Source of the DNA: Bacteroidota bacterium
Lineage (GTDB): Bacteria; Bacteroidota; Bacteroidia; Bacteroidales; JAAYUG01
Direction: 5' to 3'
NCBI GenBank assembly: GCA_029571215.1
Contig: JAKPTE010000008.1
Location: 1 to 64,000 of the forward strand
DNA length: 64,000 bases
A model generated the notes under the pieces. It saw only the letters and a program-made list of their open reading frames with translations, had not been told where the DNA came from and made no database searches. The translations under genes and the position numbers were made by a program. Positions 59,639-64,000 of the stretch are shown here, in pieces. The first letter of the stretch is position 1. Every line of letters begins with the position of its first letter.

Positions 59639-59668
59639 TTTGTATAATTTTAATTTTTTTTATCTTTG
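59639..59668 (+). promoter_or_regulatory. Candidate his operon promoter
   Basis: TTTG at 59639-59642, 18-nt spacer, TATCTTTG at 59661-59668; about 17 nt before the leader-peptide ATG. Confidence 0.6.
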
Positions 59669-59684
59669 CACATCAGTAAGAAGT

Positions 59685-59747
59685 ATGAAAAAAGGTATTG
59701 CATATCAGATTCATGGTCATCATCATCATGTTGATGCCGGGATCTGA
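59685..59747 (+). CDS. hisL: Histidine operon leader peptide MKKGIAYQIHGHHHHVDAGI (5 His, 4 consecutive)
   Basis: ATG AAA AAA GGT ATT GCA TAT CAG ATT CAT GGT CAT CAT CAT CAT GTT GAT GCC GGG ATC TGA; immediately precedes a terminator hairpin and hisG. Confidence 0.9.
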   Translation: MKKGIAYQIHGHHHHVDAGI

Positions 59748-59750
59748 TTG

Positions 59751-59804
59751 TGCAGTGCATTTTAAAGAATATCCCTAAGGTTTGCAGCACTGCAAACCTT
59801 TTTT
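59751..59804 (+). promoter_or_regulatory. his attenuator: antiterminator TGCAGTGC (59751-59758) : GCACTGCA (59787-59794) versus terminator AAGGTTTGCA (59777-59786) : TGCAAACCTT (59791-59800) plus T-run
   Basis: Perfect 10-bp terminator stem with GCAC loop followed by U-tract; perfect 8-bp competing pairing that consumes the loop and the start of the 3' arm. Confidence 0.85.
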
Positions 59805-59822
59805 GTTTTAAACACATTGTGT

Positions 59823-60680
59823 ATGGAAATTGTGAAATTAGCCATTCAAAAATCAGGGAGACTGAGTGAAAAGTCGCTCCAGTTGCTTTCGGAGTGTGGT
59901 ATTGGATTTGAAAACGGAGAGCGCCGGCTTGTGGCACGGGCGCATAATTTTCCTGTGGAACTCCTTTTTCTCCGCGATGACGATATCCCGCAGTACGTTT
60001 CTGATGGAGTGGCTGATGCAGGAATTGTGGGTGAAAATATCATTGCCGAAAAGGAATACCCTGTACCTGTCATGGAAAAACTTGGTTTTGCCCGTTGCCG
60101 CCTTTCTCTGGCTGTTCCAAAATCAGTCAGTTACAGTGGGACTGAATGGCTTCAGGGAAAACGGATTGCAACATCCTATCCCGGGATTCTGAAGAGGTTT
60201 CTTACTGAAAAAAATCTGGAAGCGGATATCCATGAAATCAGCGGAAGCGTGGAAATCGCTCCAGGAATAGGGCTGGCTGATGCCATTTTCGATATTGTTA
60301 GTTCCGGAAGCACGCTCATCAGCAACGGACTGAAAGAAGTGGAAACCATTATGCATTCCCAGGCTGTTCTGATAAAAAATGCCCACCTTTCCCAGGAAAA
60401 AAATCAGATTCTTGACCGGATGCTTTTCAGAATAAGGGCTGTTCAGAAAGCAAAGAGCAATAAATATATCCTGCTGAATGCCCCCAACGAAAGCATTCCT
60501 GAAATAACCCGTCTGATACCGGGAATGAAAAGCCCAACCGTGATACCATTGGCCATGGAAGGCTGGAGCTCGCTTCATTCCGTTGTAAATGAAAATGATT
60601 TCTGGGAAGTTATTGGTAAACTGAAAGAACTTGGAGCACAGGGAATTCTTGTCATTCCTATTGAAAAGATGATTGTATAG
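59823..60680 (+). CDS. hisG: ATP phosphoribosyltransferase
   Basis: Start set at MEIVKLAIQKSGRLSEKSLQLL; DAGIVGENII, ATSYPGILKRFL, GLADAIFDIVSSGSTL. Confidence 0.97.
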   Translation: MEIVKLAIQKSGRLSEKSLQLLSECGIGFENGERRLVARAHNFPVELLFLRDDDIPQYVSDGVADAGIVGENIIAEKEYPVPVMEKLGFARCRLSLAVPKSVSYSGTEWLQGKRIATSYPGILKRFLTEKNLEADIHEISGSVEIAPGIGLADAIFDIVSSGSTLISNGLKEVETIMHSQAVLIKNAHLSQEKNQILDRMLFRIRAVQKAKSNKYILLNAPNESIPEITRLIPGMKSPTVIPLAMEGWSSLHSVVNENDFWEVIGKLKELGAQGILVIPIEKMIV

Positions 60681-60687
60681 TTACCTA

Positions 60688-61995
60688 ATGTCGTCGATTA
60701 TGCAGATTATAACTGATCCACCAAAAAATAAATGGCCAGAATTGCTGGCCCGGCCTCTGCTGAACAGTGATGCACTGGAAGACTCTGTAAAAAAAATCCT
60801 GGAAGAGGTTCGGCAGGAAGGGGATCGTGCTGTTCGTTCCCTCACAAAAAGGTTTGATGGAGCCGATATACCCATATTCCGGGTGACACCGGATGAATTC
60901 GATCAGGCCGATGCCCGGCTTTCTTCCGATACCAAAAAAGCAATAGCCACTGCTATTGAAAACATCACCCGGTTCCACAAAGCGCAAATGCCTGCAAAAA
61001 TAAGGATCGAAACAACTCCCGGTGTACAGTGCTGGCAAAAAAGTGTTCCCGTTCATAGTGTAGGACTTTATGTTCCTGGCGGTTCAGCTCCGCTTTTTTC
61101 TACCGTTCTTATGCTCGGAATACCTGCCAGGCTGGCTGGTTGTGAACGAATCATTGTCTGCACACCGCCCGGAAAAGATGCAGCCATTCATCCGGCAATA
61201 CTTTATTCGGCCAAAGCAATCGGAATTACCGAAGTTTACAAAGTGGGAGGAGTACAGGCTATTGCAGCCATGGCTTACGGTACAGAAACCATTCCGGCTG
61301 TAAATAAAATTTTCGGCCCCGGAAACCAGTATGTTACGATTGCCAAACAAATAGTCAGTCGCCAGGGAGTTGCTATTGACCTTCCGGCTGGTCCGTCAGA
61401 GGTACTGGTGGTCGCTGATGAAACAGCCATCCCTTCCTTTGTGGCTTCCGACTTGCTGGCCCAGGCAGAACATGGCCCCGATAGTCAGGTCATCCTGATA
61501 ACCACCCATCCTGAAATTGTAGAACCCATATTGTCAGAACTTAAAACCCAACTCGCAGCTCTGCCCCGTCGAAACATTGCCGAAAAAAGCCTTTCCGGAA
61601 GCAAAGTATTTATTGTGAGGGATAACCAAACCATGATGGATATGGTTAATGAGTATGCTCCCGAGCATTTGATTATTGCTGCCCGAAATGCTGAAACCCT
61701 TGCGGAACTGGTTGTCAATGCCGGTTCGGTATTCATAGGTAACTATTCCCCTGAAAGTGCAGGTGATTATGCCTCAGGCACAAACCATACCCTCCCGACC
61801 TACGGCTATGCCAAAGTTTTCGGAGGGGTCAGCATCGACTCCTTTATGAAGAAGATTACCTTCCAGGAACTGTCGGAGTTTGGCCTTCGGAATCTGGGAC
61901 CGGCTGTGATGAATATGGCGGCTGTCGAAGAACTCGAAGGACATCGCAACGCCGTAAAAATTCGTTTTGATTACCTGAGCAAAAAACAAAGCTGA
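60688..61995 (+). CDS. hisD: Histidinol dehydrogenase
   Basis: [73 protein letters not shown]; start could also be 60700. Confidence 0.97.
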
Positions 61996-63035
61996 TGAAC
62001 CTCGATCTGTATTTCCGGCCCTCAGTATTATCCCTGACTCCCTATTCTTCTGCTCGTGATGATTTCCAGGGAGAGGCCTCGGTTTTTCTTGACGCCAATG
62101 AAAATCCTTACAACAGTCCCTATAACCGTTACCCGGATCCGCACCACAGAAAACTAAGGAAGCGAATTGCCGAACTGAAAAATGTGCCTCCGGAATCCAT
62201 TTTTCTTGGAAACGGAAGTGACGAAGCCATCGACCTGCTAATCAGGGCTACTTGCGAACCGGGTGTACATTCGGTGCTGGCAATTGATCCTACTTACGGT
62301 ATGTATGCCGTTGCTGCTGCTGTGAACAATGTCAGATATACCGGGGTTCTTCTGAAAGAGGATTTTTCTCTTGACAGGGAGAAATTGCTCGGGGCGGTCA
62401 CTTCACAGACCAGACTGCTGTTCCTCTGCTCTCCCAATAACCCAACAGCCAATAGTTTTGACCCGGCAGATATTGCATACCTTGTCAGAAATTTTCAAGG
62501 ACAGGGACTGGTGGTACTCGATGAAGCGTATATTGATTTTTCCCGCTATCCGGGTTTTCTCGGGCGATTGCAGGATTTTGAAAACCTGGTCATCTTGCAG
62601 ACTTTCTCCAAAGCATGGGGGCTTGCAGGAGTGCGACTGGGGATGGCGTTCGCAAATCCTGACATTATTAAAATACTCTATAAGATCAAGTATCCATATA
62701 ATATCAATGTGCTCACCCAGGAACTTGTCATTGACTTTCTCAGCAAACCATACCTGAAAGATCAGTGGGTGGAGATGATTCTCAGCGAACGTACCATACT
62801 CGCACAAAGGCTCGCCGGATTGCCATTTGTCAAAATGGTTTATCCTTCGGATGCGAATTTTCTTCTGGTACAGGTTGATGAAACGGAGAAAATATACAAC
62901 TGGTTGTGCGGTCAGTCCGTTATTGTGCGCAATCGCTCCAACGTGAACCTGTGCTCCGGATGCCTGAGGATAACGGTGGGAACACCGGAAGAAAACCAAA
63001 AATTGCTGGATGCTCTATCATATTATAAAAAATAA
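61995..63035 (+). CDS. hisC: Histidinol-phosphate aminotransferase
   Basis: 346 aa; DANENPYNSPYNRYPDPHHRKLRKRIAEL, FLCSPNNPTAN, VVLDEAYIDF, QTFSKAWGLAGVRLGM; start overlaps the hisD stop (TGATG). Confidence 0.97.
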   Translation: MNLDLYFRPSVLSLTPYSSARDDFQGEASVFLDANENPYNSPYNRYPDPHHRKLRKRIAELKNVPPESIFLGNGSDEAIDLLIRATCEPGVHSVLAIDPTYGMYAVAAAVNNVRYTGVLLKEDFSLDREKLLGAVTSQTRLLFLCSPNNPTANSFDPADIAYLVRNFQGQGLVVLDEAYIDFSRYPGFLGRLQDFENLVILQTFSKAWGLAGVRLGMAFANPDIIKILYKIKYPYNINVLTQELVIDFLSKPYLKDQWVEMILSERTILAQRLAGLPFVKMVYPSDANFLLVQVDETEKIYNWLCGQSVIVRNRSNVNLCSGCLRITVGTPEENQKLLDALSYYKK

Positions 63036-63038
63036 GTT

Positions 63039-64000
63039 ATGGCCGGAAAAAAAGTTCTTTTCATTGATCGTGATGGTACACTGATCGTTGAACCTCAGGA
63101 TACATTTCAGATTGATTCCCTGGAGCGTCTGGAATTTTTGCCGGGTGTATTCCGAAACCTTCATTACATACGGCATAACTGCGATTATGAACTCGTTATG
63201 GTTAGCAACCAGGATGGTCTGGGAACACCGGCATACCCGCAGGCTGCTTTTGATCTCGTGCAGAATAAACTGATTACTTATTTTACTAACGAAGGAGTTT
63301 TTTTTGATGACATTTATATTGATCCTTCCCTTCCTCATCAAAATTCACCCGGCAGGAAACCGGGTACGGCAATGCTGACGAAATATTTTGGTCCTGGCTA
63401 CAATCTCGCTGAATCGTATGTTATCGGCGATCGTCTCACAGATATTGAACTCGCGCGTAATCTGGGGGCATCCGGAATTCTTATCGGCGATGCATCTCGT
63501 TGGGAAGAGGTGCAAAAAGCTGGCCTCGGCGCATGGTGCGCTCTCATAAGTCCTGACTGGAACCGGATTGCAGAGTTTCTGATGCAGCGCAATCGCTATG
63601 CTCAGGTGAAACGGACAACCAGGGAAACCGATATTTCCGTTTCCATTAGTCTGGATGGAAAAGGTACAGGAAACATTTCCACTGGGATAGGATTTTTTGA
63701 TCATATGCTGGATCAGATTGCACGTCACTCCGGATGTGATATCAGTATCCGGGTAAAAGGAGATCTCCATGTAGATGAGCATCATACAATTGAAGATGTT
63801 GCCCTGTGCCTCGGCGAGGCGTTCCGAACTGCACTCGGCGATATGAAAGGAGTGCAACGGTATGGATTCGCCCTTCCGATGGATGAATCGCGGGCAACGG
63901 TGCTGATTGATTTTGGTGGTCGTCCCTTCTTCCGCTGGAAAGCGGTTTTCCGCAGAGAACGAATCGGAGAATTTCCTGCCGAAATGTTCCCGCACTTTTT
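63039..64000 (+). CDS. hisB: Bifunctional histidinol-phosphatase / imidazoleglycerol-phosphate dehydratase (truncated by window end)
   Basis: From ATG at 63039: MAGKKVLFIDRDGTLIVEP...VSNQDGLGT...GDRLTDIELARNLG...; then GIGFFDHMLDQIARHSG, DEHHTIEDVALCLGEA. Confidence 0.96.
   Translation, partial: MAGKKVLFIDRDGTLIVEPQDTFQIDSLERLEFLPGVFRNLHYIRHNCDYELVMVSNQDGLGTPAYPQAAFDLVQNKLITYFTNEGVFFDDIYIDPSLPHQNSPGRKPGTAMLTKYFGPGYNLAESYVIGDRLTDIELARNLGASGILIGDASRWEEVQKAGLGAWCALISPDWNRIAEFLMQRNRYAQVKRTTRETDISVSISLDGKGTGNISTGIGFFDHMLDQIARHSGCDISIRVKGDLHVDEHHTIEDVALCLGEAFRTALGDMKGVQRYGFALPMDESRATVLIDFGGRPFFRWKAVFRRERIGEFPAEMFPHF

Follow-up and report, generated by a model that had tools for sequence, protein, structure and literature searches.

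A probable ribosome-mediated attenuator ahead of the hisGDCB operon in a Bacteroidota bacterium

Ribosome-read attenuation of amino-acid operons is a textbook principle, and Bacteroidota are marked by unusual promoters and little use of Shine-Dalgarno sequences. The short stretch ahead of hisG in the 64,000-nucleotide DNA analysed here (the window) raises the question of whether a histidine operon of this phylum is controlled in that manner and, if so, which RNA strands make the choice. Altogether, our analysis argues that a ribosome-mediated transcription attenuator very probably governs hisGDCB.

The hisG leader in the window and in its relatives

The controlled operon begins with hisG (59823-60680, + strand; TIGR00070 and TIGR03455) and continues on the same strand with hisD, hisC and hisB (60691-63998, hisB running past the window end; TIGR00069, TIGR01141 and NF003937/TIGR01261), and inspection of the sequence places hisA-, hisF- and hisI-like ORFs further down the contig. 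The sequence-only reading that drew attention to the locus had described a 20-aa ORF with five His codons and a perfect 10-bp terminator stem with a T-run ahead of hisG, and both are indeed present. The leader ORF (59685-59747, + strand), with its ATG at 59685 and its TGA stop at 59745-59747, encodes MKKGIAYQIHGHHHHVDAGI in 20 codons, and its regulatory stretch CAT GGT CAT CAT CAT CAT (59712-59729, + strand) holds five His codons (59712-59714 and 59718-59729), that is, clustered codons of the amino acid that the operon makes. A pattern scan met this spaced arrangement once in 64 kb and in 0/100 shuffles. In the sister species, the counterpart is MKKGIAYQIHGHHHFDVGV, which differs from the window by substitutions and by a 3-nt deletion at the His run.

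Between this ORF and hisG, the first structural gene, sequence and fold place an intrinsic terminator (59777-59800, + strand) made of a 10-bp stem (59777-59786 : 59791-59800) and the 4-nt loop GCAC (-12.8 kcal/mol, z -3.8), followed by a T-rich tail to about 59809, whose T-run ends at 59804, 18 nt before the hisG ATG at 59823. The terminator is directional and the gene upstream of the leader is divergent, so that it cannot end an upstream + strand gene; nearby, only the leader precedes it on that strand. As for the start of the transcript, a candidate Bacteroidota-type promoter (59640-59668, + strand), with TTG at 59640-59642, an 18-nt spacer and TATCTTTG at 59661-59668, can be recognized by eye, as previously read, although a simple sigma-70 scan returned no promoter on this strand. 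The predicted transcription start lies at about 59673-59676, ~10 nt before the leader ATG. Among homologous leaders, a TAnnTTTG box stands within 60 nt upstream of the ATG in 57/123 cases, compared to 4.9% of shuffles, and its usual position 17-23 nt before the ATG implies a short 5' untranslated part. The combination of TAnnTTTG promoter, short ORF and terminator occurs once in ~360 kb of the host genome, a draft of 2.13 Mb.

The comparison with relatives was based on 400 nt upstream of hisG from 171 regions, in which a leader was defined as an ORF that begins with ATG and contains three or more clustered His codons, and the background was given by dinucleotide shuffles. Such a leader is found in 147/171 Bacteroidota regions (1.4% of shuffles), and together with a downstream terminator in 132/171 (0/855 shuffles); in a second sample, 40 genomes belonging to other orders of the class, 32 carry the leader and 25 of these the terminator as well. 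Loss of the His run or of either pairing in relatives, which the sequence-only reading had named as the outcome that would speak against its proposal, did not occur: in the upstream-region comparison that it had suggested, dozens of genomes keep the His run, the terminator and the antiterminator pairing, with compensatory changes. Among the 123 non-redundant homologous leaders, the median length is 19 codons, the median number of clustered His codons is five and the terminator stem starts a median of 34 nt after the stop; the corresponding values in the window are 20, five and 29 nt. The residues flanking the His cluster differ freely among relatives and the cluster itself is kept, which fits a role for the codons rather than for the peptide. 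This observation bears on a quite different explanation, in which a constitutive terminator would merely follow a small functional His-rich peptide, e.g., one binding metal, with no switch at all. The terminator is real and HGHHHH could bind metal, but the regular position of the leader ahead of hisG, its unconserved flanks, the varying form of its His run and competing pairings that are specific to each genome (see below) leave this explanation very improbable.

By the same definition, 21/171 upstream regions have no His leader (L015, L016, L018, L020, L048, L075, L076, L087, L121 and 12 others), and at some of these loci the device may have been lost or hisG may be controlled otherwise. One of them, L075, is a Legionella sp. 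MAG contig (JAFKHV010000021.1) whose HisG is 46% identical to that of the window; the ORF just upstream resembles, by eye, a TrpR/HisR-type repressor, an arrangement that would agree with the regulation by HisR described in Legionella (PMC9413887). Elsewhere in the sample, the leader peptides of L111 and L041 are identical, one being a Marinifilum record and the other a genome of the window's order, which places the host in the Bacteroidota, probably among the Bacteroidales as GTDB defines them.

Competing pairings and the proposed switch

Three pairings that make up a competing set can be drawn in the leader RNA. Segment 1, early in the leader ORF (59695-59712, + strand; folds and partner swap), pairs with 59740-59758. 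Segment 2, the antiterminator strand TGCAGTGC (59751-59758, + strand), starts 3 nt past the leader stop, is retained in the sister species and shows compensatory change in relatives. It is the exact reverse complement of segment 3, GCACTGCA (59787-59794, + strand), which consists of the terminator loop and the first 4 nt of the 3' arm, as the sequence-only reading had noticed; the spaced TGCAGTGC/GCACTGCA pair occurs once in 64 kb and in 0/100 shuffles. The fold of the leader RNA is more stable than that of shuffles (z = -6.5; sister species, z -6.4), and the best fold contains the 1:2 hairpin (59695-59712 with 59740-59758; -32.8 to -33.4 kcal/mol), in which the antiterminator strand is held by default through the outer pairs 59695-59702 : 59751-59758. 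The sister species retains this hairpin despite the changes at its His run. The terminator and antiterminator pair proposed earlier was thus borne out, but the 1:2 hairpin had been overlooked, and with it the pairings 1:2, 2:3 and 3:4 form the complete set of classical ribosome-mediated attenuation.

Forced-structure energies were compared for successive 3' ends of the transcript. If the free RNA is taken to start at 59745, the antiterminator is well ahead of the growing terminator when the 3' end is at 59794 (-12.0 versus -3.7) and still ahead at 59798 (-12.6 versus -11.5), and the complete terminator is slightly ahead of it (-14.0 versus -12.6). If it starts at 59733 instead, a local hairpin beside the leader stop can form together with the terminator, and termination is favoured (-19.4 versus -13.4 at 59798), so that the outcome depends on the stall position and on kinetics. 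Moreover, if the ribosome halted at the last His codon, 59695-59702 would remain exposed and could again pair with segment 2. These modelled energetics allow the switch without proving it. Taken alone, the 2:3 helix of the window shows no clear excess over shuffles of its own spacer (p 0.10); its support is comparative and comes from the tests described in the next section.

We propose the following sequence of events. The transcript would begin ~10 nt before the leader ATG and be translated at once. With ample His-tRNA, the ribosome would reach the stop at 59745-59747 and cover 59751-59758, the terminator at 59777-59800 would form and transcription would end before hisG. With scarce His-tRNA, the ribosome would stall on the His codons and mask segment 1, leaving segment 2 (59751-59758) to pair with 59787-59794; this antiterminator would take the loop and the first part of the 3' arm, the terminator could not close and RNA polymerase would read into hisG. 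In the absence of a ribosome, segment 1 would pair with segment 2 and the terminator would form by default. We infer from these elements that the leader ORF is translated, that ribosomes stall on it, that read-through ensues and that the system responds to histidine; in outline this mechanism agrees with that put forward by the sequence-only reading, histidine being the presumed signal in both.

A control at the level of translation has also to be considered, in which the short ORF would bring in ribosomes that initiate anew at hisG, the hairpins being incidental. A re-initiation role of this kind has been proposed for short leader genes close to structural genes, those of Bacteroidetes included, with distances peaking at 11-14 bp (PMC4833913). 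The leader stop considered here lies 75 nt from hisG, beyond that peak and with a terminator in between, and the alternative pairings are conserved, which together make re-initiation a most doubtful account of this locus.

Antiterminator designs among Bacteroidota

Best-duplex energies compared with shuffled spacers gave a modest signal (median z -1.8). This simple test is weak because the terminator core TGCA is self-complementary, and partner-swap tests were therefore used instead, in which the fit of a segment to its own partner is compared with that of the same segment from other genomes. The window's group was defined by the presence of TTGCA or TCGCA in the 5' arm of the terminator, which selects 30 leaders, and its members drawn by genome search all belong to the window's order. 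In this group, segment 2 is specific to its own loop and 3' arm (z -6.3, 0/2000 permutations) and shows no such fit to its own 5' arm (z 0.0), a comparison limited by the nearly invariant 5' arm. In the other 93 leaders, it is the 5' arm to which the segment shows an own-specific fit (z -11.3). The default 1:2 pairing is own-specific in both sets (z -7.9 in the window's group and -13.0 in the rest), and none of eight controls, built from reversed arms, downstream sequence and promoter sequence, gave a signal.

An anchored test, in which the arms were set by invariant cores only (GYAG near the stop and CTGC in the terminator) and never by pairing, showed that own partners extend the helix by 1.77 bp compared to 0.87 bp for swapped ones (0/5000). 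The same 22 anchored rows hold 16 doubly changed cells versus 6.4 in shuffles (0/500) and are 81.5% paired versus at most 47% with the arms slid, counts whose independence is weakened by sequence relatedness; the null controls suggest that relatedness does not produce the covariation signal. The covarying pairs include TGCAGTGC:GCACTGCA in the window, TGCAGGAA:TTCCTGCA (L006), GCAGAAC:GTTCTGC (L086), GCAGGAT:ATCCTGC (L089), GTAGTAT:ATACTGC (L104) and GCAGTAT:ATACTGC (L106). The swap, anchored and pair-count tests agree on a mutually exclusive antiterminator conserved through compensatory change. Judged from these comparisons, there are two antiterminator designs, in which the segment near the leader stop is predicted to pair with the 5' arm in most genomes, or with the loop and 3' arm in the window's group. 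What had been read from the window, an antiterminator on the loop and 3' arm, holds for its own group, but most Bacteroidota use the 5' arm instead.

Given this distribution, the same attenuator could work in the window through an antiterminator on the 5' arm, the 8-nt match to the loop and 3' arm being secondary. Such a design is the rule elsewhere in the phylum, an inner helix between ATTTTA (59759-59764, + strand) and 59776-59781 can form in the window, and in related families a TGTAA-like motif complementary to the 5' arm is present in 14/30 leaders (6.9 expected). The swap test within the window's group, even with the constraint that its 5' arm imposes, points the other way; moreover, the inner helix, which appears on forcing the outer helix and is clear in some relatives, is weak in the window species and no better than shuffles there and in its sister species. 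We consider a 5'-arm antiterminator in the window unlikely. The inner helix was likewise discarded as a general feature, being found in part of the group only (mean z -0.8); in some families, pairing of the TGTAA-like stretch with the 5' arm would add a second, inner helix that locks up the entire terminator.

Capture of the loop and 3' arm, the reading that we prefer for the window's group, has a consequence for timing. Since its strands include the loop and part of the 3' arm, this antiterminator cannot close until RNA polymerase has nearly arrived at the T-run. We tentatively propose, at slightly less than even chances, a late-deciding attenuator whose choice would be made once RNA polymerase is at the T-run, and of which related families would have doubled the device in series. 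About a dozen relatives carry two non-identical units of His leader and terminator in series within the 400 nt upstream of hisG, and these paired units are, on sequence grounds, apparent tandem his attenuators. Both terminators satisfy the strict criterion in 11 of them (L082, L089, L090, L092, L093, L097, L099, L102, L134, L144 and L160); in L010, L120, L123 and L128, tandem leaders are accompanied by a terminator for the first only.

A further variant concerns L110, L118, L207, L220 and L221, whose terminators all follow the pattern CCGTCTGAGTAAACAGACGG and keep a TGAGTA(A/C)A loop. Close to the leader stop, L110 and L118 also hold a sequence resembling CTCAGGCGAGG that is complementary to arm and loop together, and this combination seems to be a conserved, lineage-specific antiterminator.

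Known systems and significance

The his attenuator of Salmonella, which has seven His codons in a 16-codon leader and the terminator as its default state, is the nearest well-described model (PMC4046918). The hisL leaders of Salmonella and Escherichia coli share with the present device a short leader ORF with tandem His codons, a terminator before hisG, a default pairing of the first leader segments and an antiterminator formed on stalling (PMC4046918). They differ from it by seven consecutive His codons in 16 versus five in 20, by six pairing segments (A-F) versus four, and by an antiterminator that takes the 5' arm of the terminator rather than the loop and 3' arm; unlike hisL, the leader described here has no evident Shine-Dalgarno sequence and a Bacteroidota-type promoter. 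The window and 18 related loci gave no match to the Rfam model of the enterobacterial His leader at gathering score, nor was that model among the permissive matches of the window region. The Rfam T-box model had no match in the window or in the 18 related loci, nor could the device be assigned to any other Rfam family. The permissive Rfam matches to Spy1786666 and STnc390 (E 0.5-0.8) were set aside as mere terminator hairpins.

Within the phylum, the transcriptome of Flavobacterium psychrophilum revealed a conserved structured 5' element ahead of hisG, also present in other Flavobacteriaceae and without Rfam hits, and leader-peptide attenuation was proposed there ahead of amino-acid operons from mapped transcripts (PMC9723704). 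That element shares with ours the phylum, the gene and the absence of an Rfam hit, and the main account of that study, as far as it is available to us, gives no leader peptide or competing pairings for hisG (PMC9723704). The leaders of our sample outside the window's order have 5'-arm antiterminators, unlike the window's group. In Bacteroides, short ORFs in long 5' UTRs have been described as reminiscent of leader peptides (PMC7366714). It follows from these two reports that this kind of device is already known and that its occurrence in the phylum has been outlined (PMC9723704, PMC7366714). By comparison, his attenuators have been predicted in the Bacillus cereus group, Peptostreptococcaceae and Erysipelotrichaceae (PMC9413887), which have in common with ours leader peptides with 3-5 His codons, a terminator and an antiterminator but belong to separate lineages, the main text of that study making no mention of Bacteroidota. 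In the searchable literature, we found no description of the class-wide occurrence, of the two antiterminator designs or of the tandem copies.

The host genome also holds a trpE homologue (L245, G000:C20) preceded by a leader ORF encoding MRTKRTWWWWFSDSRFP (755-808, reverse complement), and within ~60 nt after this ORF by a strong terminator with a T-run, GGCCTGCC...GGCGGGCC, which read together look like a probable trp attenuator. Judged by eye, the spacer of this unit matches the 5' arm and not the loop, apparently the 5'-arm design. Hence, attenuation in this genome is probably not confined to histidine.

If this reading is true, the his operons of Bacteroidota from gut, soil and marine habitats would be under ribosome-mediated attenuation by devices that, in the present case, escape both general annotation and Rfam. 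For such a switch to work, a ribosome has to follow RNA polymerase closely, and these leaders would thus provide a natural assay for transcription-translation coupling in Bacteroidota. Moreover, the coexistence of a 5'-arm design and of a design based on the loop and 3' arm would permit a direct test of when an attenuator commits.
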